Assembly (NCBI RefSeq): GCF_017356035.1 | Contig: NZ_JAFIQX010000006.1 | Location: forward strand, 186,001 to 250,000 | DNA from: Longitalea luteola | GTDB taxonomy: Bacteria > Bacteroidota > Bacteroidia > Chitinophagales > Chitinophagaceae | DNA length: 64,000 nt | Direction: 5' to 3' | Shown: positions 31,981 through 53,683 of the stretch, piece after piece | Numbering within the stretch: position 1 is the first letter of the stretch | How the letters are laid out: every line of letters starts with the position of its first letter | Notes under the pieces: model-generated | Told to the model about the DNA's origin: nothing | Database searches by the model: none | What the model saw: the letters and a program-made list of their open reading frames with translations, nothing else | Program-made: the position numbers and the translations under genes

Positions 31981-32048
31981 CAAACTTAGTTTTGAAGCAA
32001 CGACTGCAAAATGGAAAATACTTCGAAAAAGATGGACAATCTTATGGA
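31981..32048 (-). promoter_or_regulatory. PUL regulon promoter A (before the DUF5107 gene): shared operator plus -33/-7
   Basis: Minus-strand order: operator TCCAT-AAGATTG-TCCATCTTTTTC (32025-32048), then TTG (32009-32007), 18-nt spacer, then a perfect -7 element TAAGTTTG (31988-31981). The start codon follows 23 nt later. The operator and the -7 element are 36 nt apart, exactly as in copies B and C. The operator holds a TCCAT direct repeat with 12-nt period. Confidence 0.75.
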
Positions 32049-32168
32049 GTTTACAGTTCATAGTTTAAAGTTCTTAGTTCGCAGTTCTCAGAAAATTCAC
32101 CATTGTCCATTCACCATTGACCACTCACCATTCACCACTCACCATTCACCACTCACCATTCACCAATG
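32049..32168. repeat. Heptamer array with two vocabularies (GTTCTTA-type and TCACCAT-type), entering the GH2-2 coding end
   Basis: 32049-32091 reads GTTTACA, GTTCATA, GTTTAAA, GTTCTTA, GTTCGCA, GTTCTCA. From about 32096 to 32168 it reads TCACCAT/TCACCAC/TTGACCA-type heptamers. The GH2-2 stop codon (32146-32148) and its last seven codons (encoding SLVNGEW) lie inside this second part. The array directly adjoins the regulon operator of copy A. Confidence 0.75.
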
Positions 32169-35007
32169 ACTTTAGCTTGTCTACTCTCACTGATGTAGCT
32201 GGCTGAAAGGCATTCCCACCCATATACTGCTTCAGGCTGTACAATAACTGCCTCGCTTCCGGCCGGTTGTGCTGGTCTGTTAGCAGATCAATGCCCGACA
32301 ACAACAACCTGCCTTTTCCAACTTTGCATTCTACGATCAGGCCCAGGGGACGGGCAGTTACCCAATCATCGATCACCCGCACAATTGGTTGCAGTCCCTT
32401 TGCAAGCGAGTCGAGCTGAATGGCCCTCGAATGACGCATGCCATCCCACCATTGCCAGTTGCTGTGGTATTGGGTCGGAAAGGAAGCCAGCGCAGGATGC
32501 CGGGGATTACATAATATTCCTAAGGTAACCGGGGGCTGACTGCTTGTCCAGGCTGTATTCCAGAAAATACTTGAAAAACCGATGGCAATGTTTCCCGGTT
32601 TACCTTGCTGCAGGGTGTCTTTTTTCAGGCTCAGCAACACTTTCCCTCCTTTGTCAAGGGTCTCCAGCGCCTTTGCATCCAGCTGCCCGGTCACGAGCAC
32701 GTCCGGGGCGTTGTCTGACAATGAAGCCGGATATACAAACAGGTCCCAGGAATTTTGATACGCCCCAACAGAAACCGTTAGCGTAAGTCTTTCCGGCCGT
32801 TGTACGGCTTGCAGGGATAACCTGATCGTTCCTAACGGAATGGCATTTCCTAAAGGAATATTGGTTGTTGGCAATTGTCCCTGGAATAGTGTTTTACCCC
32901 TTTCATTGGTGATTACCCAGGCCGGCGTTACCTGGTCAAGCACAGTTGGGCCAAATTGCGCCACTTCCACCGGCACCGATAACTCTTCATTATTAAGATA
33001 GATCATTTTAGGCAATTTTGCCAGGGGCACCACCGCATTACAGAAACGGCTATACGCTTTAGCAGTAACATACCCTTTTTCTTCCCAAAAAGGATTCAAC
33101 ACGCCCACGAGCGCTGTTCCCTGTCCGGGGAAATCATGCAGATCAAGCAGCTGAAAACCTGCAAAACCAGGCGTACGCAGGGCGGCTTCTATATCGGCTT
33201 TATAACACAATACCTGCAGTTTGCCGGAAGCCAGCAAAAAGCTGTCGGCCAGCTTGCTCATGCCATGGCTATTGAGCTTGTCCCTGAAGATCTCAAAATT
33301 CTTTGCTTTTAATACGCCGGTATACTTTTTAATTTCTTTAAAATCGGGGTACACACACCATTGCCCGATCTCATGGCTTACAGTCGGCAGTTGCCATTTA
33401 GATATGAGGTTACTCCAATTATAGTCTGCTCTTGGCGGCTGACCGTTGATAATACTTTTCAACCCTTCGCCCCAGCGTTGGATGCGTGGCGTAGGGCTGC
33501 TGTTGAAGTCCTGTTTGTCAATGACCGGCCAACCGGCGCCCGTGGTATACAAGCGCCGGGGATCTTTATTTTTCCAGTAGGCTACAAAATCTGTCAGGTA
33601 TTTAACGTGGTTCTTGCCGTTAGGTTCATTCCCATACGCCATCAGGCAAAACGAGGGATGGTTACCATAGGCTTTCACCACCCGTTCGCTTTCTTCATAC
33701 ATATATTGGTCAAGCGGTTTGCCATCACCAATGGTAGCTCCCTGGTTGGCCCAGGAGGAACATTCTACCTGCAGGTAGAAACCCATGCGGTCTGCAGCGT
33801 CAAAGGCGGCAGCAGGCGGCGTCCACGAATGAAAGCGCATATGGTTCAGGCCAAAAGAACGGGCTACTTTGAAAATGTGCAGCCAGGAAGCCACGTCCGT
33901 GGGCGGGTAGCCTGTTTTCGGGAATATGGCACACTCCAGGGTTCCCCGTAAAAAAGCTGGCCGGCCGTTGATGGTGAATTGGGTACCATTCGCCGCGAAT
34001 GCGCGCATGCCGAACTGAACCTGCTTTTCATCTTTACCCCCGCTTTGTATTAGCTGTACTTTCAACGTATACAGGTTGGGTTCGAACTCATCCCACAGCA
34101 ATGGCTTTGTACCCATTGAATAGTGCATCTCCAGAGTGGCGCTGTCACCCGTTATCTCAATATCTTTTGTCAGGGATTTTAATTTCTCTGCAGGGGAGTG
34201 TTGGGCGGTTGCCTGCAATTGAAGGGTGGCCTTAGCCGGTTTGCCGGTGGCATTCGCGATGGTCACTTTCGCTAACACTTCTTTGGTCATTATATCCGGA
34301 TACAATTGCACATCCTTTACATACACTGGTGAACGGGCGTTCAATGCTAACCGGCCTATCATGCCATTCCAGTTACTCTGCGTGTGATCGGAGATGCTGT
34401 GTGAGTTCTGGCCAACATCAACATCCTTGACCCGGTTATCTATGCGAATGGTAATTTGATGGGTGCCTGGCGTAAGCACTTTGCTAAGATCGAAAACATG
34501 TGGCGTGCCCAGGCTGTTCTGCATACCAACCGCTGCACCATCTACCCAAACAGTAGTTTCCCAATGGCTGCGTTCAATGAACAATTCCAGTTGTTTGCCT
34601 TTCCAGGCCGCCGGAACGGTTACTGTTTTCTGGTACCAGGCAGGGCCTTTATAATATTTAACAGGCTGCAACCAGAAGGGCACTTTAACGTTTCCCTTTT
34701 TACGATAAGCAGCATACTCAGGTTTTACGAACCAGGAAGAGTCCCAGATACTTCCTGTCCAGGGCGTAAACACATCGATATCATTTCCTTTTCCATTCGT
34801 GGTCATAGAGCCGGGCAATGTAATGGCATCCGGCAGCTTCCGGTTAAACCATTGCTGTTCGACGCCTTTATCCAGCGAATCAGCCTGAAAACGCCATTGG
34901 CCCGATAAATTAAATGTATTCTGTAATTCCTGATGAGGCTGCGCCTTTACAATTGAGTTAATTAACAAAAAGGGAACCAACAAGAAACAGGGAATCTTCT
35001 TTATCAT
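32146..35007 (-). CDS. GH2 family glycoside hydrolase 2
   Basis: A 953-residue secreted GH2 enzyme (signal peptide ending NSIVKAQ), paralogous to the other three here. Acid/base Glu461 lies in AYGNEPNGKNH and nucleophile Glu546 in SHEIGQWCVYPD. LLDLHDFPGQGTALVG follows in the barrel. Compared with copy 1 it has an insertion near residues 60-105 (DVFTPWTGSIWDSSW and KVPFWLQPVKYYKG), which may extend the active-site rim. The C-terminal flavodoxin-like part includes LGILCNPRHPALASFPT. Its final residues are encoded by a heptamer repeat. It is the last gene of PUL unit 2 after GH30-1. Confidence 0.92.
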   Translation of the reverse strand: MIKKIPCFLLVPFLLINSIVKAQPHQELQNTFNLSGQWRFQADSLDKGVEQQWFNRKLPDAITLPGSMTTNGKGNDIDVFTPWTGSIWDSSWFVKPEYAAYRKKGNVKVPFWLQPVKYYKGPAWYQKTVTVPAAWKGKQLELFIERSHWETTVWVDGAAVGMQNSLGTPHVFDLSKVLTPGTHQITIRIDNRVKDVDVGQNSHSISDHTQSNWNGMIGRLALNARSPVYVKDVQLYPDIMTKEVLAKVTIANATGKPAKATLQLQATAQHSPAEKLKSLTKDIEITGDSATLEMHYSMGTKPLLWDEFEPNLYTLKVQLIQSGGKDEKQVQFGMRAFAANGTQFTINGRPAFLRGTLECAIFPKTGYPPTDVASWLHIFKVARSFGLNHMRFHSWTPPAAAFDAADRMGFYLQVECSSWANQGATIGDGKPLDQYMYEESERVVKAYGNHPSFCLMAYGNEPNGKNHVKYLTDFVAYWKNKDPRRLYTTGAGWPVIDKQDFNSSPTPRIQRWGEGLKSIINGQPPRADYNWSNLISKWQLPTVSHEIGQWCVYPDFKEIKKYTGVLKAKNFEIFRDKLNSHGMSKLADSFLLASGKLQVLCYKADIEAALRTPGFAGFQLLDLHDFPGQGTALVGVLNPFWEEKGYVTAKAYSRFCNAVVPLAKLPKMIYLNNEELSVPVEVAQFGPTVLDQVTPAWVITNERGKTLFQGQLPTTNIPLGNAIPLGTIRLSLQAVQRPERLTLTVSVGAYQNSWDLFVYPASLSDNAPDVLVTGQLDAKALETLDKGGKVLLSLKKDTLQQGKPGNIAIGFSSIFWNTAWTSSQPPVTLGILCNPRHPALASFPTQYHSNWQWWDGMRHSRAIQLDSLAKGLQPIVRVIDDWVTARPLGLIVECKVGKGRLLLSGIDLLTDQHNRPEARQLLYSLKQYMGGNAFQPATSVRVDKLKSLVNGEW

Positions 35008-35036
35008 GTCACTTTAGATATTTTTATGGTAATATC

Positions 35037-35087
35037 AAACCGTGCCACGGATTGCCCTTCGACTGCGTTTGGCACCGTGGCACGGTT
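35037..35087. promoter_or_regulatory. 13-bp inverted repeat AACCGTGCCACGG / CCGTGGCACGGTT upstream of GH2-2
   Basis: Arms 35038-35050 and 35075-35087 are exact complements with a 24-nt loop. They match the palindrome at 28597. The stem lies about 30 nt upstream of the GH2-2 start codon and about 60 nt after the GH30-1 stop, so it could be an intercistronic processing or attenuation hairpin. Confidence 0.55.
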
Positions 35088-35108
35088 AGTCTGCGTTACC
35101 CTCTTTTT

Positions 35109-35122
35109 CCGCCAGCTGGCGG
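35109..35122. repeat. Perfect palindrome CCGCCAGCTGGCGG
   Basis: A fully self-complementary 14-mer in the GH30-1/GH2-2 gap, preceded by CTCTTTTT on the plus strand. Next to the inverted repeat at 35037 it makes this gap unusually rich in secondary structure. It could be a terminator hairpin or a dispersed palindrome. Confidence 0.5.
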
Positions 35123-35147
35123 ATACGGGCGGGCAAGTGTCTCGCGT

Positions 35148-36803
35148 TTATTGAATTGTACCTGCTAAAGTTACTACCGAACGGGCAGGAACAACGATAT
35201 TATTCAATGCGTTGGCGGTTCTTTTCAAATTATAGGCAAAATCGGTGGTATAAACAGCTACTGCATTGCCTGTCAGATTCAATGAACTATTCTCTCCCTT
35301 CAGCTCCAGGATCTTGTCCTTTGCTTCGGGATTGACAACCACCACTACCAATTTCTTACTGGTCTCATCTTTGTAAGCAGAGATCATTAAAGTGTTGGCC
35401 GCAGTAACAGCATCTGTTATTCCCTGCACATTAGCGGTAATACGTTTCATGCCGGGCCGGATAAAACGGGCATAGTTACCAAAAGACCATAGTTGCTTTG
35501 AGTCCAACACAATGCCATCCTGCTTGCAATTGTTTACATTCATCTGGCCAGCCGGATCGTTTATGTACACGAGCGCGTCGCTGTAATTATACGGACTGAT
35601 AGCCAGCCACCAGTGCCAGGATGTTACATTGGTAATGGCCAGGTCGTGATGCAGCACTTTTGCCACATATAAACCATAATCGATGCTTGTATTTCTCGGG
35701 TAACCATTGTATTTACCACAGATATCGCCCAGAATACCGAATTCGGTCTGCCATACGGGCAATGATGCATCAACCTGGTTGATCTTTGCCACTACCTGCT
35801 TCCGGACATTGATCATGTTATCATCAGGACAGGTGGTAAAATAACTATGAGCCGAGATGGCTTTTTCAACAGCGGGGAGGTTCCCAATATAATTGGCAGA
35901 TGCGGGGGTGAAGAACTGATTGATCTGGTCGCCTCTGCCATCATTGTTGCGCCCGGTTAAAAAATCCCATTGCGCTGCTTCGCCTATTACCACTTTAGAA
36001 GAAGTAGCTGCCAATTTTGGCGACAATGCTTTTACCAAAGCGGCCAGTTCTGCATTGGTTGCCTGGGTGCCTTCCTGGCCAGCGCTGGTAGCCTGCCCCC
36101 AGGTCCACTGAGGTTCATTCACCGGGCTCAGATAGTCAAACTGAAAATGTTTGGTCACCTCGGCCATAAAATCGGCGTATGCGTCCATCTTGCCATCCTG
36201 CAGGTTCATTACGATACCACCGCTGCTGTTATACGCTTTTCCATTTCTGGACATATGAACAGGTGGGGTAAGCGAAAAGCCGACTGTATATTTTATCCCG
36301 CGTTGTTTGGCGGCCTGCAGAAACCATTGCTGACCGGCTTGTTTCGTCCAATCGTAGGAACCATCGGCATTTAAAAAACATTCCTCTCTTCGCCATTCAT
36401 CGGCGATATTGCTGGAAGTGCCCTGTTCAAAACTGCCGCCGCCGATATTGAACCGCCATAAAGTCAAACCAATGCCTTTGGGTGATCCATCCTGCAGCGT
36501 ATCGGTGCTGAACAGGAGATCGGCAATTTGATTCTTCTTCTGAACATCATTCCATTTGCCAATGTACTTCGCCGTCCAGCAATCAGAAGCACCGAAGCTG
36601 TGAATGGTTTGTTTCACCTCGTTAAGGTTAACGGTAACAATTGTTTTGGGTTGCTGCTGGCAGGTGTCTACACCCAGGTATACACAGGTGTTAGGCGGTG
36701 GGGGAGGTTCCTCACCGCCTGAAGCGCCTTTTTTGCTGCAGGAAAACCAGCAAGTACACAGCAACAGCCACATAAGTATGTGAGAACGATTATTTTTCTT
36801 CAT
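35148..36803 (-). CDS. GH30 family glycoside hydrolase 1 (lipoprotein)
   Basis: A 551-residue surface or periplasmic lipoprotein (lipobox cysteine 22 in CWFSCSKKG, followed by a Gly/Glu/Pro spacer). The GH30 barrel begins at TIHSFGASDCWTAKYIG. The acid/base is Glu230 in YLSPVNEPQWTW and the nucleophile Glu354 in WQTEFGILGD. LWRFNIGGGSFEQG and KYTVGFSLTPPVHMSRNGKAYN are further signatures. The C-terminal beta domain (about 430-551) is typical of GH30. The SPVNEPQW context resembles the GH30_5 endo-beta-1,6-galactanases, though beta-glucosidase or fucosidase activities in the family cannot be excluded. It is the third gene of PUL unit 2, with a paralogue at 51905. Confidence 0.92.
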   Translation of the reverse strand: MKKNNRSHILMWLLLCTCWFSCSKKGASGGEEPPPPPNTCVYLGVDTCQQQPKTIVTVNLNEVKQTIHSFGASDCWTAKYIGKWNDVQKKNQIADLLFSTDTLQDGSPKGIGLTLWRFNIGGGSFEQGTSSNIADEWRREECFLNADGSYDWTKQAGQQWFLQAAKQRGIKYTVGFSLTPPVHMSRNGKAYNSSGGIVMNLQDGKMDAYADFMAEVTKHFQFDYLSPVNEPQWTWGQATSAGQEGTQATNAELAALVKALSPKLAATSSKVVIGEAAQWDFLTGRNNDGRGDQINQFFTPASANYIGNLPAVEKAISAHSYFTTCPDDNMINVRKQVVAKINQVDASLPVWQTEFGILGDICGKYNGYPRNTSIDYGLYVAKVLHHDLAITNVTSWHWWLAISPYNYSDALVYINDPAGQMNVNNCKQDGIVLDSKQLWSFGNYARFIRPGMKRITANVQGITDAVTAANTLMISAYKDETSKKLVVVVVNPEAKDKILELKGENSSLNLTGNAVAVYTTDFAYNLKRTANALNNIVVPARSVVTLAGTIQ

Positions 36804-36830
36804 AGAAATATTAAGGTTGTGAAACGTGAA

Positions 36831-37094
36831 TGTGGTGAATGGTCAATGGTGAATAGTGAATAGAAACGCTACTTTTCGGCTTGCAGCACTTTCGCAGAGC
36901 CCATTGACTATTGCCCATTGACTATTGACCATTGACTATTGTCCATTGCCCATTGACTATTGACCATTGCCCATTGACCATTGCCCATTATCCATTGACC
37001 ATTGCCCATTGACCATTGCCCATTGACTATTGCCCATTGACCATTGCCCATTGACTATTGCCCATTGACCATTGCCCATTGACCATTGCCCATT
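36831..37094. repeat. Largest heptamer array (CCATTGA / CCATTGC / CTATTGC words) between susD-2 and GH30-1
   Basis: 36893-37094 is about 28 consecutive heptamers of CCATTGA, CCATTGC, CTATTGC and CTATTGA with few indels. A short inverted counterpart (TGGTGAA, TGGTCAA, TGGTGAA, TAGTGAA) lies at 36835-36862. The array touches the stop codon of the SusD gene at 37093. It fills the whole 289-nt intergenic space inside an operon, and in the transcript its two parts could pair. Confidence 0.85.
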
Positions 37095-38688
37095 AAAAGT
37101 ATCCCGGGTTCTGCTCCACCACACCTTCAGAGGAAATAACCTGACTGTTGGGGATGGGCCAAACCAGGTGGATCGCAGGATTGAAATGAAATCCTTTGTT
37201 CTGTGGCTCGGTTTTATTATTTACTTCCCAGTAATCGGTGCTCACCGTTGTATTGTATTTGACAAAACTTCCATTAGGGCCAAAAACGCTGTTAATGACC
37301 GGTGCTCCACTTTGATCTTTCCAACGGCGCAGATCATATAACCGGTCGCCTTCCAGCGCCAGCTCCAGCCTTCTTTCTTTCCGAACGGCATTGGTGAGGT
37401 TCCAGCCACTGAGGCTCATGTCGGTTGTCAGGCTAACGCGGTCTCGTATCCTTTTTAAAGATGATAGCGCTTCAGCCGTATGGTTGTGCATGGCGGCTGC
37501 TTCTGCATGGATGAGCAGCACATCGGCAAAGCGTAAGATGATATCGTTCAAAGCATACAAACCGTTTGCCGGGCGCTGGGCTTTGGGCACATAGCGCTTT
37601 CTGCTGAATCGTCCTGATTTGGAAGAAGCGGTTCCCGAACCGGTATAAGGTCTGGCATCAAACTTCGGCGTATTGGGGTCGCCCACGACCGGCAACCCGT
37701 GCCGGTTGATGGTCCAATGCAGGCGAATGCTGTCACCCTCAGCCATGAACGCTTTTTCCAGATCGCTGGTCACGGAAATATAGCCCCAGCCGCCATCTGC
37801 TACAGAGTTCATCGGAATAACATACCCGTTGGCAGGAAGGGCCGGTTGTTGTGAAGATGCATTTTGGATTTCGAATATTGATTCGGTGCCGTTTTTATAA
37901 TTGTAATTCCATAAAGTGCCGAATGTGCTTTCCAGGCTATAATCACCCAGGTCGATCACCTGTTTGGCAGTTGCTTCTGCATTTACCCAGTCTTCGGCAT
38001 ACAAATAGGTTTTGGCCAGCAACGCAAGTGCTGCGCCCTTCGAAGCCCGGAACCTGTCTGCAGCAGGGTATTGTGATCTCCGGGGCAGTATTGCGGCGGA
38101 TTCCTTCAGATCATTGATGATAAAATCATATACTTCTTTGGCAGAGGAACGGGCAACATGGGTGGTAGGCGGAAGGATCCGCGTAACGATAGAAACGCCG
38201 CCCCAGTTCCGCACGAGGTCAAAATAGTTGAAGGCACGCAAAAACTTCAATTCGGCAATAAACTGGTTCTTGCTGTTTTCGTCGATAGGTGCTTTTTCTA
38301 TTCCCTGGATAGCCGCATTCCAGATACCGATTGCTTTGTACAACATGATCCAGTGGCCTTCCGCCCTGTCGTTCCCGGCATCGATGGTATAGTGCGCTAC
38401 GGCATCCCAGGAAGCATGGGTCGACTGATAGGTATTTCCGATCCAGGCATTGTCACTGGCAGCTTCGCCTGATAAGAAGCGCCAGTTCTGTGTTTGCCAC
38501 CAGGCGTCCCAGTCCACATAGCGATAGCTGGCTTTCGTTGCATTGTTACATTGGTCGAACGTTGTATAGAATTCCGATTCAACTATGTTGGAATTATAAG
38601 GAGGCTGATCTAAGAATTCTTTTTTACAGCTTGCATTTGTGAATGAAGCAACAATGATAGATGTATATAGAAAGATTTTCTTGTTCAT
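37093..38688 (-). CDS. SusD/RagB family nutrient-binding lipoprotein of the PUL
   Basis: A 531-residue outer-membrane lipoprotein (lipobox cysteine 21 in NASCKKEFLDQPP). It has the usual SusD features: ESEFYTTFDQCNNATKASYRYV, FLRAFNYFDLVRNWGGVSIVT, LLAKTYLYAEDWVNAEATAKQVID, the C-terminal TDYWEVNN region, and the ending HLVWPIPNSQVISSEGVVEQNPGYF. It binds glycan at the cell surface and closes the SusC channel. It follows SusC-2 by 28 nt. The stop codon is the first base triplet after the large heptamer array. Confidence 0.95.
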   Translation of the reverse strand: MNKKIFLYTSIIVASFTNASCKKEFLDQPPYNSNIVESEFYTTFDQCNNATKASYRYVDWDAWWQTQNWRFLSGEAASDNAWIGNTYQSTHASWDAVAHYTIDAGNDRAEGHWIMLYKAIGIWNAAIQGIEKAPIDENSKNQFIAELKFLRAFNYFDLVRNWGGVSIVTRILPPTTHVARSSAKEVYDFIINDLKESAAILPRRSQYPAADRFRASKGAALALLAKTYLYAEDWVNAEATAKQVIDLGDYSLESTFGTLWNYNYKNGTESIFEIQNASSQQPALPANGYVIPMNSVADGGWGYISVTSDLEKAFMAEGDSIRLHWTINRHGLPVVGDPNTPKFDARPYTGSGTASSKSGRFSRKRYVPKAQRPANGLYALNDIILRFADVLLIHAEAAAMHNHTAEALSSLKRIRDRVSLTTDMSLSGWNLTNAVRKERRLELALEGDRLYDLRRWKDQSGAPVINSVFGPNGSFVKYNTTVSTDYWEVNNKTEPQNKGFHFNPAIHLVWPIPNSQVISSEGVVEQNPGYF

Positions 38689-38716
38689 TTTTTCCGGTTT
38701 ATTATGTTAGCAGTAA

Positions 38717-41827: not shown

Positions 41828-41869
41828 AAAGCGTTTGGTTTGATTCCGCGTGGGAGATTTTTGAATAAG

Positions 41870-41973: not shown

Positions 41974-42015
41974 AAACGGTTCTATCTAAGATGTTACAAG
42001 TGGCAGGCTTAAACG

Positions 42016-44016: not shown

Positions 44017-44021
44017 ACAAT

Positions 44022-44117: not shown

Positions 44118-44145
44118 TATCCCTGTATCAGCAACTTTCAAACTA

Positions 44146-45444
44146 TTAACGAGCATTATATCTCCGAAGCGCTTCAATGTAATAATAATCAGCATAAGTA
44201 AGCGGCACATCAACTTCCGCATTACCTGGTACACCACCACAGCTATGCTTTAACAGGAAGCCGCCGTTCTCACCAACTGCTGCGCGGTATTGCGGCGAGG
44301 ACAGGGATCTAAGCATGGTTTCCGCCGCCGCCAGATATTTCTTTTTGAGCCTGGCGTCCACATAATCGGCCAGTTCGAACAGGGCAGATGAAACGATAGC
44401 TGCTGCCGATGCATCGCGGGGAGTTACCGGATACTTCTTAGGATCATAATTCCACGGTGGCGTGAACCCCGGCTGTCCTACATTAAAATCCCAATACGGA
44501 ACCTTATCTTTCGGCAGATTGGGATGATCCAGGAAGAAATCCGCCATCCTCGCCGCCACGTCTAAATACTTTTTATCTTTTGTTTCGCGATAAGTCATGG
44601 TAAACCCATAAATACCCCACGCTTGTCCGCGCGACCAGGTTGAGTTGTCTGAAAATCCCTGCTGGGTTTCTTTACTAAGGGGTTCGCCGGTTACAGAATC
44701 GTAATTAATTACATGGTAACTACTATAGTCGGGCCGCAAGTGATGTTTAATTGTTTTGTCGGCATGTTTGATTGCTATGTCTTTAAAATATGGATCACCT
44801 GTTACGCGGGAGGCGAAGAACAACAATTCCAGATTCATCATATTGTCTATGATCACCGGAAAGGTCAATAGCCGTTTGCCGTCGAGCGATTTTATCTGGT
44901 CCCATGATTTAATGCAGCCAACTTTAGGGTAATACCTTGCGGCCAGCGACTTTGCCGATTGTATCAGGATGTCCTTGTATTGAGGTTTTCCTGTTAAGCG
45001 GTATGTATTGCCAAAGCTACAGTACATCATAAACCCCAGGTCATGGTTCACCTTCACGGTTTGCAGCTTCTCCAGGATCTTCAGCCGTTCTTCAACCTCA
45101 TTCAGCAGCGTGCTGTCTTTTGACAGCTCGTACAGGTAAGCCATTGTGCCGGGGTAAAAACCGCTGATCCAGGCATAGGGACCTACCGTTTTCAGGCTGC
45201 CATCCTCGAATGTGCGTGGCAGTTGATCCGCCGGCAGGTCGGCAGTAAGTAACTTGTATTGTTGTATCGATTGGTTCACCACCGCTTTCACCCAGGGCCG
45301 TTTTGATAAGCCCGATTGCATTTTTTGAGCATGAACCTTGTTTAACAAGGCGAATGCCAGGAACAGGATTATGTATCTTATCTGCTGAACGCTTAACGGG
45401 TAACGACAAAAACGAAGCGCCTTATAACGTTGTAATTGTTGCAT
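44146..45444 (-). CDS. GH88 unsaturated glucuronyl hydrolase (second copy)
   Basis: A 432-residue GH88 enzyme, paralogous to the one at 24362. I start at 45444 (MQQLQRYKALRFCRYPL), because the longer frame runs into GH2-3; a membrane/signal segment (QIRYIILFLAFALLNKVHAQ) follows at about 21-40. Catalytic aspartates: Asp135 in HDLGFMMYCSFG and Asp200 in IIDNMMNLELLF. Compared with copy 1 it carries a short insertion near FNVGQPGFTPPWNYDPKKYPVTPRD, close to the end of the barrel, that may change substrate fit. It lies between GH2-3 (19 nt upstream) and PL8, in the order expected for lyase product clearance. Confidence 0.93.
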   Translation of the reverse strand: MQQLQRYKALRFCRYPLSVQQIRYIILFLAFALLNKVHAQKMQSGLSKRPWVKAVVNQSIQQYKLLTADLPADQLPRTFEDGSLKTVGPYAWISGFYPGTMAYLYELSKDSTLLNEVEERLKILEKLQTVKVNHDLGFMMYCSFGNTYRLTGKPQYKDILIQSAKSLAARYYPKVGCIKSWDQIKSLDGKRLLTFPVIIDNMMNLELLFFASRVTGDPYFKDIAIKHADKTIKHHLRPDYSSYHVINYDSVTGEPLSKETQQGFSDNSTWSRGQAWGIYGFTMTYRETKDKKYLDVAARMADFFLDHPNLPKDKVPYWDFNVGQPGFTPPWNYDPKKYPVTPRDASAAAIVSSALFELADYVDARLKKKYLAAAETMLRSLSSPQYRAAVGENGGFLLKHSCGGVPGNAEVDVPLTYADYYYIEALRRYNAR

Positions 45445-45463
45445 TGTAATGTTGTTTGCTTTT

Positions 45464-48295
45464 TTATCGAAGTAAAAATTCAATGTCCTCAATCTGGTCC
45501 TTCGGGTCAAATAACCCGCTGTATACATACCGAAGCATGCTATGGTACAAGCACCGCGCTTCGGGCCTGTGCAGCAGTGCCGGTAAATTGGCCATACATA
45601 CCAGCAGGCGGCCTTTGCCTGCTTTACATTCAAAGATCATCCCCAGTTTATGGTTGCGATCAATATTATCAATTACCTGTACAATAGGCCGAAAAGACCG
45701 GTTTGTACTGTCCAGGATCAATGGCCGGGCATTTTTGGTGATGCTCCACCATTGCCAGTTACTGTGAAACTCTGTTGGGAAATCCCGGAACAACGGATGA
45801 TCAGGCTTTGTGAGAATACCCAATGTACCTGCAGATACTTTTCTGTTACTTCTTTCCGTAACACCCTTAAACACCAGCCAGTTCCAAAACTCGCTGATAA
45901 ACTGCGGGCCTACCGTTTTCTGCTCAACAGCTTTATGGTCGGGGAACAGCAACACCCGCGCTCCTTTATTTAATTTTTCGATCAGCTGATCATCCAGTTG
46001 GGTAGCTATGGTAACACCAGCCGGTACAACGACGGAGGCATTGTCTGGATACACCCACACAGGATAAGCTGATCTGTAAGGCGTATTTTCAATTTCCAAT
46101 CTGACCTCCAATTTGGCTGCTTTCAAGATCTTGTTTAAAGGAAAAACAATTTTCCCTGACGGATTGATCTTACCCTTTTCAATCAAAGCCATCGGCATTT
46201 TCCCACTTGTCAATACACGGCTATCGTTTGCCGTAACTACAGACCAGCGGAGTGTTTTGCCTTTCATATCCTGCGGACTGTAATTCACCACCTGCATATC
46301 GGCGGCGAAGGTTTCATTATTCGCCCAGGTATATTTTTCCATCAGCAGTTGCACGACGACATCGTTATTGAAACGGCGGAATTCAGCTGGCGCAACAAAA
46401 CCTTTATTCTCCATAAAGGCATTCAGCAATCCAACCAGGGCAGTACCCTGACCGGGGAAGTCCTGCAGATCGAGCAACTGAAAACCGCCAAATCCCGGCG
46501 TTCGGAAGGCCATCTCAATTTCTTCGCGGTACAACAAGGCAGTCAGCATGCCGGAAGCTTTACAAAAGCTGTCTGCCTGATCGCCCATGCCTGCTGCTTG
46601 CAATCTTTCCCGGAAGATCTTAAAATTGAGTGGACGCAACACACCTGTGTAACACGCCATCTCTTTATAGTCGGGGTAAATTTGATATTGCCCGGTCTCG
46701 TGCCCAATAACGGGCAGTTGCACACCACGGATAGCAGCTGAAAAATTGCGCAGGGTAGAAGGCAAAACACTATTGATGATCCCGTTACCGGTATCTTCGG
46801 TGGCAGCAAATGATCCCCTCACATCAAAGGTTCGCGCCGCTGATTCTTTTCCCGTACGCATGGTAACCCAGAAATCATCGGTTTTCCCCGGCGCCGGATC
46901 GTTGTAAAATGCATTGGTTCCGTATGCATACAAGCGGCGGCCATCATAGTTTCGAAGATCAGCCACGAGTTTCTCATGAATGGTATTGTTTCCGGCGAGT
47001 TCATTACCTAATGTACACATCACAAAAGATGGATGATTGCCAAAGGCATCCAGGATAGCACAACCTTCCTGGTATTGAAAGGCGATCTGCGTGGTGTCTT
47101 TACCGGTAAGATCGGCCCAGTTGGGCAATTCAGCCTGAATATAAATCCCCTCCACATCGGCCGCTTCAAAGGCAGCGGCCGGTGGCGTATAGGAATGAAA
47201 CCGGAAATGATTTATGCCATATTGTTTAGCGGTGCGATACAACTTTCGCCAATGGGCCATATCTGTGGGCGGATAACCGGTTAACGGAAATACACAGCTT
47301 TCATTTTTGCCGCGCAGGAATGTAACCACATCATTAATGCGGAACTGGGTGCCAACCGGTTTAAACGAACGCAAACCAAAATTGGTCATCAGTTTATCCA
47401 GCGTGTGATTGTCGCTGCGCAGGGTAGCGGTAAGCCGGTAGAGTGCGGGCGAATACTCGTTCCATAGTAACGCCCGGGGACCTAACGGGTAGCGGAAGCT
47501 CAATATAGTGTCGCCGCTATTTACCGCAATAGGGAAGGAGCGGGGCGCAGCCGCATGTTTCAGCGATGTATTCCAGGCAGTGGCCTGCAATTGCAGCCAT
47601 AATTTTTTATGGGCTGCATTGGCGCCCTGAAGCCGGATCTGCACCAGTGCTTCTTTGTTCTTTACATCCGGTGTTATTTTTATCCAATTGATCTTAAGGG
47701 CACCGGCGGCTTCCAGGTACATGCGGCCAATGATGCCGTTCCAATTCGTTTGTGTATGTTCACTCAGTGCATGAGAGCCGCCCACCGGGAACAAAGCCGG
47801 CGTGTTGTTCACCAAAATGGTAATTGTATGTTTTCCGGGCGATAAGTTACCAGTGAGATCATACACATGCGGTGCTGATAATATGGATGCCCGGCCAATC
47901 CATTTCCCATCGATCCAGACCTGCGTTGCTTTCGTACGCTCAAGGAATAATGCCACTTGTTTATGCTTCCACGATTCAGGGATCTCGATCTCTTTTTTAT
48001 ACCAGGCAGGGCCTGTGTATTTATACGTTTGATTGAGGTATTGTGTAACCGGCTGCGTCACATACACGCCTTGTTTGTTTTCTTCGAGTGTACCCGGTAA
48101 ACGCAAAACTTCTTTAAACAAACTATCCTGCCAGTGCTGTGCAAGACCAACATTCATAGAATCCAGTCGAAATGTCCAGGTACCGGCAAGAGACAGGTTT
48201 TCCCTGGTTGAAGGCTCCTGGGCAAGCGCCTGCACTCCGGCAATAGCCAGATATATAAACAGGAAAGTTTGTCTGTATAGTTGAAAAGTGAACAA
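45464..48295 (-). CDS. GH2 family glycoside hydrolase 3
   Basis: A 943-residue secreted GH2 enzyme (signal segment MFTFQLYRQTFLFIYLAIAGVQALAQ). Acid/base Glu432 in TLGNELAGNN; nucleophile Glu533 in GHETGQYQIYPD, where Thr replaces the Ile of the other three copies. The distance between the two glutamates (101 residues) is longer than in copies 1, 2 and 4 (84-88), because of an insertion around NAFYNDPAPGKTDDFWVTMRTG. LLDLQDFPGQGTALVG is conserved. These differences suggest a diverged specificity. It is downstream of the SGNH gene and upstream of GH88-2 in PUL unit 3. Confidence 0.92.
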   Translation of the reverse strand: MFTFQLYRQTFLFIYLAIAGVQALAQEPSTRENLSLAGTWTFRLDSMNVGLAQHWQDSLFKEVLRLPGTLEENKQGVYVTQPVTQYLNQTYKYTGPAWYKKEIEIPESWKHKQVALFLERTKATQVWIDGKWIGRASILSAPHVYDLTGNLSPGKHTITILVNNTPALFPVGGSHALSEHTQTNWNGIIGRMYLEAAGALKINWIKITPDVKNKEALVQIRLQGANAAHKKLWLQLQATAWNTSLKHAAAPRSFPIAVNSGDTILSFRYPLGPRALLWNEYSPALYRLTATLRSDNHTLDKLMTNFGLRSFKPVGTQFRINDVVTFLRGKNESCVFPLTGYPPTDMAHWRKLYRTAKQYGINHFRFHSYTPPAAAFEAADVEGIYIQAELPNWADLTGKDTTQIAFQYQEGCAILDAFGNHPSFVMCTLGNELAGNNTIHEKLVADLRNYDGRRLYAYGTNAFYNDPAPGKTDDFWVTMRTGKESAARTFDVRGSFAATEDTGNGIINSVLPSTLRNFSAAIRGVQLPVIGHETGQYQIYPDYKEMACYTGVLRPLNFKIFRERLQAAGMGDQADSFCKASGMLTALLYREEIEMAFRTPGFGGFQLLDLQDFPGQGTALVGLLNAFMENKGFVAPAEFRRFNNDVVVQLLMEKYTWANNETFAADMQVVNYSPQDMKGKTLRWSVVTANDSRVLTSGKMPMALIEKGKINPSGKIVFPLNKILKAAKLEVRLEIENTPYRSAYPVWVYPDNASVVVPAGVTIATQLDDQLIEKLNKGARVLLFPDHKAVEQKTVGPQFISEFWNWLVFKGVTERSNRKVSAGTLGILTKPDHPLFRDFPTEFHSNWQWWSITKNARPLILDSTNRSFRPIVQVIDNIDRNHKLGMIFECKAGKGRLLVCMANLPALLHRPEARCLYHSMLRYVYSGLFDPKDQIEDIEFLLR

Positions 48296-48348
48296 TAAAG
48301 TGATAAAGTTGATAGAGGTGATAAAAGCAAGTATGTTTAGAAAATGAG

Positions 48349-48380
48349 GCTTCCGGTTTGCCGCCTGCCGTCTCCCGCTT
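48349..48380. repeat. Short heptamer repeat (CTTCCGG, TTTGCCG, CCTGCCG, TCTCCCG)
   Basis: Four to five heptamers sharing NNNCCGN, ending at the stop codon of the SGNH gene (48379). It has the same style as the larger arrays but GC-rich words. Confidence 0.55.
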
Positions 48381-49080
48381 ACTCAAAGTATCGCATGATC
48401 TCCGCAGCAATCAATGTATGTCCGGCCCTGTTAGGATGATTTGACTGCGACATGTAGCCTTTCAGATCCTTTTTCTTCTCTACTATCTGTTTAAACTGTT
48501 TGTAACTGTCAGCCAAGCCTACATGATATACATTCGCCAGCTCTTTCAGTTGCCTGGCAAATAATTCCAGCTCGTTGCCGGGCTGCAGCAGATCCACCTG
48601 TTGGTCTGCCGATGGTGTCAGCAATATCACTTTGATATTTTTCCTCAAAGCCTGCCTGATCATCTTTTCCATGTGCTGCCGCGATGCTGCCAGGCCCAGC
48701 TTACGGTCGTTCAGCGCATAATCAATGAACAACACATCGGGTTTATGCGTCAGTACATCCCTTTTAAAGCGTTTTTCACCCTGGGCAGAATTTTCACCGC
48801 CAATGGAAGTAACGATCACATTGATCACGGCAAAGGGATATTGTTGCTTTAATTGTTGCAGTACTAAATAGGGGTAGGCGTCGAAGGTCCTTACCTCCGG
48901 TGTGGCAAAATAACCGGCGGGCACTGAGTGCCCATGAAACACCAGGTTTATTGTCCTGTTATTGGGCCATTTTTTTTTCAGTTCCTCTTTTATTCCTTTC
49001 AGGTAATCATCAGGCTGCGCACGCACTACCTGTACCAGTAAAAGGAATACTGCCAGGTTATATAGATATTTTCTTTGCAT
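48379..49080 (-). CDS. SGNH/GDSL-type hydrolase (probable carbohydrate esterase)
   Basis: A 233-residue secreted SGNH hydrolase (signal peptide ending VVRAQ). The nucleophile block is FHGHSVPAGYF (Ser52), the oxyanion residues are in TSIGGENS (Gly94/95) and DYALND (Asn124), and the catalytic His215 is in SQSNHPNRAGH. The Asp normally three residues before that His is Gln212, so the catalytic triad may be a dyad or use another acid. In this PUL it most likely removes acetyl or similar ester groups from the polysaccharide. It lies 26 nt after GH2-4. Confidence 0.85.
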   Translation of the reverse strand: MQRKYLYNLAVFLLLVQVVRAQPDDYLKGIKEELKKKWPNNRTINLVFHGHSVPAGYFATPEVRTFDAYPYLVLQQLKQQYPFAVINVIVTSIGGENSAQGEKRFKRDVLTHKPDVLFIDYALNDRKLGLAASRQHMEKMIRQALRKNIKVILLTPSADQQVDLLQPGNELELFARQLKELANVYHVGLADSYKQFKQIVEKKKDLKGYMSQSNHPNRAGHTLIAAEIMRYFE

Positions 49081-49106
49081 ACGTAATTAAGTTGTCAACT
49101 TTATTA

Positions 49107-51887
49107 TCACCTCCTGAACAGGGCATCCACTATCTCCTCCGCCAGCGCTTCGGCAGGATTGAAGTCTTCACTAACGATATAACGCTTCAGGCTATACAAC
49201 AACTGGCTGGCTACCGGCCGTTGTTCCATACCATTAATTAGATCAACTGCAGAAAACAACAACTGGCCCTTTCCAATTTTCGCTTCCCAGATCAACCCGA
49301 TCTTTTTATTGTTATTCCAGTCAGGGATCATTTGTACCAGCGGCCGGAAAGAAGCGGGCATTGCATCGAGCACTACCGGTTTCGAATGGCGCACAACATC
49401 CCACCATTGCCAGTTGGAATGGCATTCGGTAGGGAAATGTTTCAATGCAGGATGCGCGGGATCACACAAAATACCCAGCAGGTTTGGCGGCATGCCCGAC
49501 CACACGGTATTCCAGGAAATACCCGAAAACACCGGATCAGCAGTTGAATGGATGCGGCCCGTATCGGCCAGGAGCAACACTTTTCCGCCCTGCCGTAGAT
49601 GCGCTTTTGTCGCTTCGTTCCAATCACCGGTAACCAGTATATCGTTCATTGAAACAGCTGGCAGGGACTGCGGATACACCCAAATGCTCCATTGATTGCT
49701 GTACGCAGTACCGGCTACCTGTACCGTAAAGATCAACCGGCTGGCTACTGTTATTTTATTGAGGGGGATAACCACCTCTCCAACAGGAACAGGACTTCCC
49801 AGCGCGATCTCTTTTTTAAATTTGCCCTGTTGATATACTTTTCCATCCTCATACTGTAATGACCACTCGATGGAAGCAGATGGAACAGGGCCTTTACCAA
49901 AATTGGCAAATTGAATGGTGGCCTTAAAATGTTGGTCATTGGTGTAGGTAAAAGAATCGGTACGCAACAGGGGAACTACCGGTCCCTGGAATCGGCTAAA
50001 CTCCTTTGCAGTTACATATTTTTTCGGGTCCCAGAATACATCCACCACACCTACCGGCGCCGTACCCTGACCAGGAAAATCATTCAGCTGCAGCAAATGA
50101 TAACCGCCAAATCCCGGCGTACGCAGATACGATTCGATCTCTTCTTTTTTCTGAAGCACCTGGAATTTACCGGAGGCCAGCGTAAATTTTTCCGCCAGAT
50201 CGATCATATGGTGTTCCCGCAAAGATTCACGGAACAGTTCATAATTATAAGGTTTTAATACGCCGTTGTATTTCGGTATTTCATTATAATCGGGATACAC
50301 ACACCATTGGCCTATTTCGTGTGTGATCATGGGTATCCTGAACTTTGCTACATAGTCAGCATAATCATAGCGGGTGTTCAGCGGCTGCACATTAAAGCGT
50401 CCTTTCAATCCTTCCTTCCAGCGCTGGGGCCTTGCGCCATAAAATACATTGTATTGATTTTCGGGAACGACCGGGTAAGCAGAAGCGCTGGTATACAAAT
50501 GACGCGGATCTTTTTTCCACCGGCTTACCAGGCCCGACAAAAAAGCATTCACCGAAGGACCTACCAGTTCATTGCCCTCGCAAAACATCATAAAAGAAGG
50601 ATGGTTCCCATACGTTCTCAAGATGCGGTCGGCCTCTTCTGTCAAAAACCGGTTTACCGCCGAATCCTTGCCAATGGTAAACCGCCAGTCTGAATTTTCT
50701 ACCTGAAGGTACATGCCCAGTTTATCGGCAGCCACAAAAGCGGCTTCCGGCGGGCACCAGGAATGAAAGCGCATGGCGTTCAGTCCATACTCCTTGCAAA
50801 TAGTAAAAATGCGCTCCCATTGTGCCGGCTCCATAGGGGGATAACCTGTGACCGGGAATTCCGCAGAATTCACTGTACCACGAATAAACGTCGGGCGGCC
50901 GTTAATAGTAAAGCGCGTGCCTGCCGTTGCCAGTTCCCGCATACCAAATACCACCTGCCTGTTATCTTGACCTTTCATTCCTTCCTGCTCGGCTGTCATG
51001 GAAACAGTTATTTGATACAAAACAGGATCGAACTCATCCCAGCTTTGCACCTTCGCCCCTAATGCCATTTCAGTGGACACCGTTAATAAAGAATCGCTGC
51101 CTGAAAACGGAATGGAATGCGTTGGCAACAGCAGCGGTTGACCGGTATTGGCAGTGTTACCTGAAAAATGCAGGATTCCTTTTGTGGGCGCCTTTGATCT
51201 GTTCAGGATGGTTATTTGAAAGCGGACCGACTTTTGCGACAATTGCGGATACACCTGAATGTCCTCCAGATGAACCTTGTCATAGGCCTGCAATTCCATT
51301 CGCCCGATGATACCATTCCAGTTGGTTTGCGTTTCGGCGCTCACCGCATGACTGTACTCAATGTTATAGATCATATTGTTGTCGACCCGGATACGAATGA
51401 CATTCTTTTTTCCGGGTTGCAGCAAACCGGCAAGATCATATACGTGCGGCGTGGAAAGACTTTCCTGTTTGCCGGCAGGCTGGCCGTTTACCCATACACT
51501 GGTTTCCCAATGAGCGCGTTCCAGAAAGAGGCGTACATCTTTATTTTTCCAACCTGATGGAACAAAGATCTCTTTTTCATACCAGGCTGCGCCTTTGTAT
51601 TCATACAGGCGGGTGAGGCGCAGGGAGGTCATGTCCTGCGTTTTAATGCCTTTACCCGCCTGATCGGTAGAACCGGGCAGGGTGATCTCTTCAGGAAGCT
51701 GCGGCATCAACTGAACGCCATTGCTGCTGATGCCTGTAAAAAAAGGATCGAGCTTGAACTTCCAGATACCCTGTAAAGGAATTATTTCGCAGGAAGGCCC
51801 TGTTTGACCATTAACCTGGCCAAGGGTCAAACGCCAGCTCATGAGTATAAAAAATAAGGTACAGCAACCAATGATTGTACGTTTCAT
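49107..51887 (-). CDS. GH2 family glycoside hydrolase 4
   Basis: A 926-residue secreted GH2 enzyme (signal peptide MKRTIIGCCTLFFILMSWRLTLGQ). Acid/base Glu440 in CEGNELVGPS; nucleophile Glu524 in THEIGQWCVYPD. The conserved block reads LLQLNDFPGQGTAPVG. By motif wording it is nearest to GH2-2 (HEIGQWCVYPD, YGVLK-type continuation, KFQVL). Both of these copies sit directly downstream of a GH30 gene, so GH30-GH2 looks like a duplicated two-gene module. It follows GH30-2 by 17 nt in PUL unit 3. Confidence 0.92.
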   Translation of the reverse strand: MKRTIIGCCTLFFILMSWRLTLGQVNGQTGPSCEIIPLQGIWKFKLDPFFTGISSNGVQLMPQLPEEITLPGSTDQAGKGIKTQDMTSLRLTRLYEYKGAAWYEKEIFVPSGWKNKDVRLFLERAHWETSVWVNGQPAGKQESLSTPHVYDLAGLLQPGKKNVIRIRVDNNMIYNIEYSHAVSAETQTNWNGIIGRMELQAYDKVHLEDIQVYPQLSQKSVRFQITILNRSKAPTKGILHFSGNTANTGQPLLLPTHSIPFSGSDSLLTVSTEMALGAKVQSWDEFDPVLYQITVSMTAEQEGMKGQDNRQVVFGMRELATAGTRFTINGRPTFIRGTVNSAEFPVTGYPPMEPAQWERIFTICKEYGLNAMRFHSWCPPEAAFVAADKLGMYLQVENSDWRFTIGKDSAVNRFLTEEADRILRTYGNHPSFMMFCEGNELVGPSVNAFLSGLVSRWKKDPRHLYTSASAYPVVPENQYNVFYGARPQRWKEGLKGRFNVQPLNTRYDYADYVAKFRIPMITHEIGQWCVYPDYNEIPKYNGVLKPYNYELFRESLREHHMIDLAEKFTLASGKFQVLQKKEEIESYLRTPGFGGYHLLQLNDFPGQGTAPVGVVDVFWDPKKYVTAKEFSRFQGPVVPLLRTDSFTYTNDQHFKATIQFANFGKGPVPSASIEWSLQYEDGKVYQQGKFKKEIALGSPVPVGEVVIPLNKITVASRLIFTVQVAGTAYSNQWSIWVYPQSLPAVSMNDILVTGDWNEATKAHLRQGGKVLLLADTGRIHSTADPVFSGISWNTVWSGMPPNLLGILCDPAHPALKHFPTECHSNWQWWDVVRHSKPVVLDAMPASFRPLVQMIPDWNNNKKIGLIWEAKIGKGQLLFSAVDLINGMEQRPVASQLLYSLKRYIVSEDFNPAEALAEEIVDALFRR

Positions 51888-51904
51888 CCTTTCTTGCTAT
51901 GGTT

Positions 51905-53506
51905 TCATTGATAGGTTCCTGTGAATGTAACTATTGACCTCGAAGGGATCACCAGGTTATTTACAGCTGCCACTGTTTTTTTCAGATTCCGCGTAGCGTC
52001 TGTGGTATAAGCGTTCACCACGTTCCCGGCAAACCGAAGTTTGTGTTTTGTACCCATCAGCTGCAGGGATTGCTGATCTCCGGTTGGATTAACAACCACC
52101 AGCACCAGCTTCCGGCTGCTTTCATCTTTATACGCCGAAACCATCAATGTACCAGCTGCCTTGACCGGATCATTCAATCCTTCTACGGCTACATTTATCC
52201 GCTTCATACCCGGGCGAACAAAGCGGGCATAATTACCAAAGCTCCAAAGTTGTTTGCTATCCAGCACAGTGCCATCCTCTTTGCATTTGTCTACCTGCAT
52301 ACCACCGGAAGGATCGTTGATATAAACCAGGCCATCGCTATAATTGTAGGGATTTATAGCCAGCCACCATTGCCAGGAAGACACATTGGCGAGGGTGAGA
52401 TCATGATGTAATACCTTGGCTACATACAGACCATAATCGATGCTCGTATTTCTTGGGCCGCCTTTGTACAGATTACAAATGTTACCCAGAATACCGAATT
52501 CAGTTTGCCAGGTTTCCAGTTTTGCATCTACCTGCCGGATCTTCCCTGCCACCTGCTGGCGCACCTTCACCAAATGAGAATCGGGACAGGTGGTGAAATA
52601 ACTGTGTGCTGATATAATATGAGCGGTATTCGGTAATTTGCCAATATAGTTTACAGAAGCAGGGGAAAAGAACTGTTGGATCTGATCGCCGCGGTTATCT
52701 TTATTTCTACCGTATAAAAAATCCAGCTGACCGGCTTCACCGATCGCTATCTGTGATCTAACGCGCCGGGCAACAAGGCTGTCGGCCAGCAGCCTTACCA
52801 ATTCGGCAATTTCATCATTGGTAGCCTGAGTACCTTCCTGGCTGATGCGGTCTTTGCCCCAATCCCACTGCGGTTCGTTTACAGGGCTCAGGTAATCAAA
52901 CTTAAAATGAGCTGATACCGCTGCCATAAAACCTGCATAGGCATTCATTTTTCCTTTCAGAATATTCATCGACGGCTCCGCGGTACCGTTATAAGCCTTT
53001 CCATTCCTGGCCATAAAAACAGGTGGTGCAATGGAGAAGCCCAGGGTATACCGCACGCCTCTTTGTTTTGCTGCCTGCAGGAACCATTGTGCTCCTTGCT
53101 GTTTCTTCCAGTTCCAGGAACCATCTGGCTGCAGAAAACATTCTTCCCGCCGCCATTCGTCGGGAATATCACTCGCTGCACCCTGCTCAAAACTGCCGGC
53201 GCCAATATTGAAGCGCCAAAGGGATAAGCCAATGCCTTTCGGACTTCCATCTGCTAACGTATCAGTACTGAACAGCCAGTCTGCAATTTGATCTTTTTTG
53301 GAAGTATTGCTCCAGTTACCGATGAATTTGGTCGTCCAGCAATCGGAAGCGCCAAAGCTGTGTATGGTCTGCTTTTCATGCTCCAGCTGAATGGTGATCC
53401 TGGTCTTATCAACAGCTTTTTTCTGACTAAACGCAGCAGGTGTTCCAGCCGTCAATGCCAATAGCATTAGCGGCAGTATTCCCTTTGGACTGTTATAACC
53501 ACGCAT
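51905..53506 (-). CDS. GH30 family glycoside hydrolase 2
   Basis: A 533-residue GH30 enzyme, clearly paralogous to the lipoprotein at 35148. It has a cleavable signal peptide (LMLLALTAGTPAAFSQ) and no lipobox, so it should be soluble in the periplasm rather than surface-anchored. Acid/base Glu211 in YLSPVNEPQWDWG; nucleophile Glu336 in WQTEFGILGN. The substitutions SFEQGAASDIPDEW and RYTLGFSIAPPVFMARNG keep the same active-site scaffold. It is the first gene of PUL unit 3, with regulon promoter C 110 nt upstream. Confidence 0.92.
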   Translation of the reverse strand: MRGYNSPKGILPLMLLALTAGTPAAFSQKKAVDKTRITIQLEHEKQTIHSFGASDCWTTKFIGNWSNTSKKDQIADWLFSTDTLADGSPKGIGLSLWRFNIGAGSFEQGAASDIPDEWRREECFLQPDGSWNWKKQQGAQWFLQAAKQRGVRYTLGFSIAPPVFMARNGKAYNGTAEPSMNILKGKMNAYAGFMAAVSAHFKFDYLSPVNEPQWDWGKDRISQEGTQATNDEIAELVRLLADSLVARRVRSQIAIGEAGQLDFLYGRNKDNRGDQIQQFFSPASVNYIGKLPNTAHIISAHSYFTTCPDSHLVKVRQQVAGKIRQVDAKLETWQTEFGILGNICNLYKGGPRNTSIDYGLYVAKVLHHDLTLANVSSWQWWLAINPYNYSDGLVYINDPSGGMQVDKCKEDGTVLDSKQLWSFGNYARFVRPGMKRINVAVEGLNDPVKAAGTLMVSAYKDESSRKLVLVVVNPTGDQQSLQLMGTKHKLRFAGNVVNAYTTDATRNLKKTVAAVNNLVIPSRSIVTFTGTYQ

Positions 53507-53616
53507 GGGCGTTTGCTTTTGCAGGTATCAATATATATGAGAAGCAATAAGAAGGGCACATAGGCAGCATCGTTTTAAATGTTAGCAAGAATAAATCGTG
53601 CAAGAAATTGATCAGG

Positions 53617-53683
53617 CAAATCTTGCATTTATAACTCCGCAGGCCAATAGAATTTTTTATGAAAAAGATGGACTATTTTATGG
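53617..53683 (-). promoter_or_regulatory. PUL regulon promoter C (before GH30-2): shared operator plus -33/-7
   Basis: Minus-strand order: operator TCCAT-AAAATAG-TCCATCTTTTTC (ending at 53661), TTG (53647-53645), 20-nt spacer, -7 element AAGATTTG (53624-53617). 60 of 67 bases match promoter B and the 36-nt operator-to--7 distance is the same. The stop codon of the upstream DUF2784 gene (53673-53675) lies inside the operator. Confidence 0.78.

Follow-up and report, generated by a model that had tools for sequence, protein, structure and literature searches.

Three transcription units of a Longitalea luteola polysaccharide utilization locus share an operator design probably recognized by a free-standing AraC-family regulator

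Results and Discussion

Three transcription units with a common promoter design

The DNA analyzed here is a 64,000-nt stretch of the Longitalea luteola genome (RefSeq assembly GCF_017356035.1, contig NZ_JAFIQX010000006.1, positions 186,001 to 250,000; hereafter the window). It contains a polysaccharide utilization locus (PUL) organized in three transcription units, A, B, and C, all on the minus strand (Table 1). Each unit is preceded by the same promoter and operator design, which is the subject of this study and which we interpret as the probable target of a free-standing AraC-family activator. The units begin with genes for a DUF5107-TPR protein, a SusC protein, and a GH30 enzyme, and they hold 3, 4, and 6 genes, giving 13 where a first-pass annotation of the sequence had counted a regulon of 12. 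We took ATG 41827 as the SusC start (1,036 aa) because the TTG start given in the list of open reading frames (ORFs) falls in the -7 box. A local regulator was considered and set aside, as Pfam scans of 36 of the 58 listed window ORFs found neither an AraC nor a hybrid two-component system (HTCS) protein.

The shared element has the form (T/A)CCAT-N7-TCCATCTTTTTC and occurs three times in the window, with the positions and spacing that the first-pass annotation had described. The -7 box lies 36 nt after the 12-mer in all three cases, as annotated, and the count of 60 identical positions out of 67 between sites B and C is exact; site A agrees with B and C at 40 and 41 of 67 positions, respectively. 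The annotation also reported no further copy in the window, which holds for exact matches: up to three mismatches yielded four matches against 0.51 expected from shuffles, the fourth being a poor one at 3224-3247 with three mismatches. The whole-genome search that it had proposed returned only the three window copies among exact matches in the 7.3-Mb assembly (43 contigs), and none for the backward pattern. With up to two mismatches, there were 66 genome matches (including the three exact ones) versus 50 for the backward control, and thus near matches in the genome are mostly due to chance.

Table 1. Coordinates of transcription units, motif copies, operators, and -7 boxes in the window
Feature	Position	Strand	Content	Basis
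Unit A	24362-31957	-	DUF5107-TPR protein 28616-31957; GH2 25812-28577; GH88 24362-25573	Pfam
Unit B	32146-41827	-	SusC 38717-41827; SusD 37093-38688; GH30 35148-36803; GH2 32146-35007	Pfam/NCBIfam
Unit C	42016-53506	-	GH30 51905-53506; GH2 49107-51887; SGNH/GDSL 48379-49080; GH2 45464-48295; GH88 44146-45633; PL8 42016-44016	Pfam
Motif copy A	32025-32048	-		
Motif copy B	41914-41937	-		
Motif copy C	53661-53684	-		
Operator A	32010-32048	-	half-site 1 TCCATAAGATTGTCCATC 32031-32048; half-site 2 TTCGAAGTATTTTCCATT 32010-32027; 21 nt apart	
Operator B	41899-41937	-	half-site 1 ACCATAAAATAGTCCATC 41920-41937; half-site 2 TTCATAAGAATTTCTATT 41899-41916	
Operator C	53646-53684	-	half-site 1 TCCATAAAATAGTCCATC 53667-53684; half-site 2 TTCATAAAAAATTCTATT 53646-53663	
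-7 box, unit A	31981-31988	-	TAAGTTTG; predicted start about 31976	
-7 box, unit B	41870-41877	-	AAGATTTG; predicted start about 41865	
-7 box, unit C	53617-53624	-	AAGATTTG; predicted start about 53612	

Related sites adjoin AraC-type genes

We searched a genus group of ten genomes, in which G000 is the window genome, for the exact pattern CCATN7TCCATCTTTTT and found it in four (G000, G001, G004, and G008). Orthologues of the window SusC are 92% identical in G001 and 83% in G008, and eight further sites were read in loci of the related genomes. Sites of type A lie ahead of DUF5107 genes or, in the case of G008, of an MFS gene that DUF5107 follows, and those of type B or C precede SusC, GH30, SGNH, or GH2 genes.

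When 394 family genomes were scanned with TCCATCWTTTTMNNNNNANNYYCYATT, 17 matches turned up in 10 genomes, versus one for the backward control. All seven matches outside PUL loci adjoin a gene for an AraC-type protein of about 300 aa, six of them divergently (at locus L068, the gene was recognized as AraC by a 93% match). The PUL of G008 carries an AraC gene of its own, L063:10013-10903, beside the first site. HTH_18, HTH_AraC, and AraC_binding domains were found in 7/7 AraC proteins scanned, namely that of G008 and six of the seven neighbors.

A close AraC relative is present in every genome of the genus group. Nine of them carry it as a core gene that shares 61-63% identity with the G008 PUL copy. 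In all nine core loci, a site of the same design lies upstream of the AraC gene, with TTTG starting 52 nt downstream of the T of TCCAT (position +52). The remaining genome, G008, lacks the core copy (the next match is 53%), and its only close AraC gene lies inside the orthologous locus, beside the sites. A site in G007 that had not been used for training (E = 4.8e-12, TTTG at +52) is located ahead of a GH2-DUF5107 pair that adjoins a DUF2784 gene.

The predicted operator is a 21-nt direct repeat at a fixed distance from the -7 box

The main repeat of the operator is a half-site of about 18 nt, YMRTAAnAwnnTCYATY, in two copies 21 nt apart, of which the second abuts the -33 region. We computed self-identity over lags of 5-44 nt, and lag 21 ranked highest in the window sites (0.63), in the sites of this locus and its relatives (PUL sites, 0.60), in the core sites (0.60), and in 57 unseen sites from the wider test described below (0.57), against means over lags of 0.26-0.30. 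The core sites also reach 0.57 at lag 28. Columns of 31 aligned sites are invariant in pairs 21 nt apart (A -4/17, C 1/22, A 3/24, and T 4/25), an invariance that arises partly by selection, as several of these columns were in the search pattern or matrix. The position of the TTTG was outside the patterns and matrices that found the 31 sites; it starts at exactly +52 in 28, at +51 in two, and is replaced by TTTA in one.

Two elements of the originally described design did not survive this comparison. The first-pass annotation had taken TCCAT as a direct repeat with a 12-nt period of the kind bound by AraC-type or hybrid two-component regulators. Self-identity at lag 12 is 0.39, 0.36, 0.33, and 0.32 in the window, PUL, core, and unseen sets, lag 21 is at the top in all four, and the 5' CCAT is only loosely conserved in related sites; on these grounds the 12-nt repeat was rejected as a dimer site. 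The CCAT/TCCAT pair is better read as two boxes within half-site 1 that the two helix-turn-helix (HTH) motifs of a single AraC subunit would contact. The TTG, likewise described as part of the design, is present in 10/11 PUL sites, in 0/9 core sites, and in one of 11 other sites of the class, and was rejected as a fixed -33 element.

We predicted transcription starts by placing the -7 box at -12 to -5, as described for Flavobacterium psychrophilum (PMC9723704). Relative to the predicted start, site A has its half-site 2 at -51 to -34 and its half-site 1 at -72 to -55. This is the arrangement of an AraC-type activated promoter, with a direct repeat of about 21 bp whose downstream copy reaches the -33/-35 region (half-site 2 ends at about -34). 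A promoter for an extracytoplasmic function (ECF) sigma factor, with a non-housekeeping -10 element, was rejected, as the TTTG of the housekeeping TAnnTTTG box stands at a fixed place; the -7 boxes of B and C do not have the leading T of that box. SusR-type operators are direct repeats with 67 or 77 bp between site centers (PMC3878776); over the lags of 5-44 nt covered here, the sites show the 21-nt repeat. Scans of 41700-54200 for sigma-70-type promoters and terminators gave no excess over shuffles.

A wider test across Bacteroidota relatives of AraC

A scan of contigs with nine aligned AraC proteins turned up at least 583 relatives, and we took the best 80, which by title belong to Chitinophagaceae, Sphingobacteriaceae, Flavobacteriaceae, and other Bacteroidota. 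Five of these were in training genomes, leaving 75 loci for testing, including two (L201 and L226) that had been encountered earlier but did not contribute to the matrix. In 57/75 loci, the single best match of a 38-nt operator matrix anywhere in the locus lay no more than 400 nt upstream of the AraC gene, in divergent orientation. Control matrices in the same loci placed 2 (reversed) and 5, 1, and 4 (three column-shuffled versions) in this position. At +52, the 57 sites carry TTTG in 35 cases, TTTA in 11, and other bases in 11; the background frequency of TTTG is 0.66% per position. Conservation of the half-sites in this test is not fully independent of the training, whereas the AraC-adjacent position and the +52 box are.

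Among 56 first target genes, picked mechanically and scanned, DUF5107 genes (17) were the most frequent, followed by SusC-type Plug genes (15), sugar transporters (5), aldose 1-epimerases (4), and PSD1/DUF1553 genes (4). Two loci have orthologues of the window SusC and SusD divergent from the AraC gene with the operator between them: L164, from a metagenome-assembled genome (57 and 66% identity), and L165, from Chitinophaga chungangae (54 and 63%). The next-best SusC/SusD locus reaches 33 and 40%. SusC/SusD orthologues also share a locus with an AraC gene in G008 (Niastella vici).

A candidate regulator in the window genome

A profile built from 16 sites, with all four strong G000 sites in its training set, yielded four strong G000 matches with E below 1e-13, namely the three sites of the window and one on contig C42; no other match was as strong. 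The C42 site has the same design and lies between an AraC-family gene (C42:64394-65281, on a different contig from the window) and a divergent locus in which a GH2 gene comes first and an MFS sugar transporter gene second. This GH2 matches many beta-galactosidases and beta-glucuronidases. The claim of a shared regulon stands as far as the common activator-type promoter design and a likely co-regulated set are concerned, but that set is not confined to the window. Two weaker sites were also found, one at C4:194931-194987 (E = 2.5e-6; half-sites CCCATAATAAAATCCATC and ACCATAAAAATTTCCATT) before a GH30-RicinB gene and one at C41:339032-339098 (E = 0.001) before a SusC gene. The profile scored 150 of 4,428 first-look candidates, so weak sites in G000 may be missed.

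The C42 protein has a C-terminal domain with two HTH motifs (PF12833, 2.2e-18; PF00165, 6.7e-24, in two stretches) and an N-terminal AraC_binding/cupin sensor (PF02311, 1.1e-14). Its best match is the NCBIfam AraC model over residues 51-294 of 295, at 102.2 bits. It was rejected as an equivalog of E. coli AraC (NF007860), for which the curated cut-off is 208 bits, and as an HTCS, as it has sensor and HTH domains without a kinase or receiver.

Based on the operators, their geometry, and their association with AraC genes, we consider it very probable that the three window sites are operators of a free-standing AraC-family activator, most likely the C42 protein acting in trans. The trans component rests on the shared operators, because the C42 gene is unlinked to the window locus in this genome. 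An AraC dimer would bind the two half-sites, 21 bp or two helical turns apart, with the two HTH motifs of one subunit contacting the 5' box (YMRTAAnA) and the 3' box (TCYAT) of each half-site. The downstream subunit, at about -51 to -34, would stand in for a weak -33 element and recruit the housekeeping sigma factor to the fixed-distance -7 box, as AraC does at araI1-araI2. The C42 regulator would thus act in trans on the three units with their 13 genes and in cis on the divergent GH2 and MFS locus. As inducer, a sugar liberated from the glycan is likely, perhaps a monosaccharide that the MFS transporter brings into the cell.

Several observations weigh against this interpretation. Apart from the lack of linkage, G000 holds two weaker AraC relatives (38 and 29%) that are also candidate binders, and G007 has another AraC-like ORF beyond DUF2784 (L154:10402-11268, with a match over 92 aa only). 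Neither weaker G000 site has TTTG at +52 (the C4 site has ATTG there, and the C41 site has TTTG at +51). In the wider test, 11 of 57 sites have neither TTTG nor TTTA at +52, L164 has ATTG, and the best match fell outside the divergent upstream region in 18/75 loci. Eight of those 18 matches lie 858-1023 nt from the AraC start, on the AraC strand and just past the end of the gene, and L202, L205, L206, L208, and L229 gave no good match (score below 8). Finally, sites of this same class served to train the matrix, and the loci tested came from the 80 closest relatives out of at least 583.

Alternative explanations

The best-surviving alternative, which we regard as improbable, is that an HTCS with an AraC-type DNA-binding domain, a class with direct repeats of about 21 bp, binds the three sites. 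In Bacteroides thetaiotaomicron, the predicted HTCS motifs consist of direct repeats whose distance averages 21 bp (Ravcheev et al. 2013, PMC3878776), and about 7.6 kb from the SusC gene on C41 with its weaker similar site lies a kinase-like ORF that ends in an AraC-type region (66 aa, 35%). On the other side, none of the 36 Pfam-scanned window ORFs, out of 58 listed, encodes such a protein, and the operator stands beside a free-standing AraC gene in 57 of the 75 untrained loci and likewise in the locus as it occurs in G008. The first-pass annotation had offered AraC-type and hybrid two-component regulators as equal choices; an AraC-type DNA-binding protein remains the likely binder, and the equal standing of the hybrid class is lost, as the operator adjoins free-standing AraC genes.

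It is very unlikely that the promoter similarity mainly reflects ancestry, with the element copied as the locus grew and the shared bases marking recent duplication instead of a bound site. The close identity of B and C would fit such an account, as would the stretch CTTATTCAA beyond the -7 box, which the B sites share with the G001 C site; together, these indicate that B and C are probably duplicates, with A a more distant copy. However, A keeps the half-sites and their spacing despite its low similarity to the other two, and the 57 unseen AraC loci keep the half-sites and mostly the TTTG position. Nor do we give much credence to a takeover of the three PUL operators by a weaker AraC paralogue (C42:100584-101432 or C11:456637-457410): both are present in G000, but neither 3.8-kb locus (L101, L110) has an operator-like site at threshold, eight more genus loci of the 38% type (L098-L100, L102, L105-L107, and L111) likewise have none, and in the DNA-binding region, the 38% paralogue is identical to the core AraC at 50/99 positions, compared with 69/99 for the G008 PUL AraC.

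Relation to known systems

At araBAD, the araI1-araI2 half-sites are spaced 21 bp apart, araI1 contains a TCCAT box, and the site overlaps the -35 element. The E. coli AraC dimer binds two proximal operators, the downstream of which recruits RNA polymerase (PMC4760080), and the C42 protein resembles it in combining a sensor domain with a two-HTH DNA-binding domain. It differs from E. coli AraC in falling below the equivalog cut-off, in its Bacteroidota -7 box, and in its PUL targets. The operators also resemble the predicted B. thetaiotaomicron HTCS operators in their repeat distance and in their location upstream of PUL operons (PMC3878776), but the protein likely to act here is a soluble AraC regulator that has neither a kinase nor a receiver domain. 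In Zobellia galactanivorans, the free-standing AraC protein CgrA acts positively on a carrageenan catabolism locus, and carrageenan-induced genes include a SusC/SusD pair outside that locus (PMC5698469). The two cases would share a free-standing AraC protein tied to a Bacteroidota polysaccharide locus and differ in substrate.

An AraC-type switch is a known kind of system, and this regulator and its DNA site look like a new example. We recognized no description of the AraC subfamily or the operator in a search of the open literature, in which the sole mention of DUF5107 that we found concerns marine stramenopiles. Canonical control of hemicellulase genes is attributed to HTCS, ECF-sigma systems, and catabolite repression (PMC10766802), and in our judgment PUL regulators of the free-standing AraC type are less often considered. 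Here, an operator and its likely regulator were matched by comparative genomics over several Bacteroidota families, and the exact geometry makes the match directly testable. It also provides a functional handle on DUF5107-TPR proteins and a starting set for an inducer search.

More tentatively, and with somewhat less than even confidence, we suggest that a core sugar-use set is controlled by a Bacteroidota-wide AraC subfamily (marked by TDIGYY and W[TS]IYW) that has a rigid operator-promoter cassette of its own, and that whole polysaccharide loci may join in trans by gaining or copying the cassette of about 67 nt. The cassette would comprise half-sites at a 21-nt period and TTTG 52 nt after the first TCCAT, and the core set an MFS transporter, a DUF5107-TPR protein, an aldose epimerase, GH2, and SusCD. 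The window would then be a case in which a minimal DUF2784-GH2-DUF5107 stretch, still present in G004 and G007, seems to have expanded into 13 genes with three cassette copies in control.

Proposed growth and surroundings of the locus

G004 has DUF2784, GH2, and DUF5107 genes with two sites, and G007 has the same genes with one. The last gene of unit B is orthologous to the GH2 beside DUF5107 in these genomes (80% in G004 and 78% in G007). These comparisons suggest an order of growth from the G004/G007 stretch through the G008 intermediate, with its own AraC gene, to the three-operator form in G000 and G001. In the window, the DUF2784 gene (53673-54053) adjoins site C, and operator C overlaps the 3' end of its ORF; a copy 84-86% identical occupies the same place in G001, G004, G007, and G008, and the locus thus seems anchored there. 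In G008, a 1,055-aa stop-free ORF (L064:6519-9686) is a GH88-PL8 fusion that matches the GH88 of unit A (82%) and then the PL8 of unit C (54%). Directly downstream of this copy of the locus lies a sigma-54-type activator with GAF domains (L064:9710-12340).

Among the enzymes of the window, PL8 has a chondroitinase AC of solved structure as its best match, and that of GH30 is a "conserved exported protein." The DUF5107-TPR protein starts without an obvious signal peptide, and its first domain matches the TPR-domain structure 5cd6 (E = 2.8e-17). Arrays of 7-nt repeats (CCATTGA/CCATTCA/CTATTGA) lie between window genes at about 32095-32165, 36832-37109, and 41933-41967, and two of these arrays come immediately upstream of operators A and B. 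The repeat pattern MYTATTSACCATTSACYATT, with one mismatch, has 340 genome matches versus one for the backward control, and no such array was seen in the G001 stretch upstream of the SusC operator. The flanks of the window (L034-L037), read as ORF lists, contain a response-regulator-like ORF (L037:19453-19998) about 50 kb from site C. FecR-type anti-sigma genes lie near both window edges (10233-11989 and 61966-63171), the former adjoining an ECF sigma gene and then a SusC/SusD pair, and these look like other loci under a different control system.

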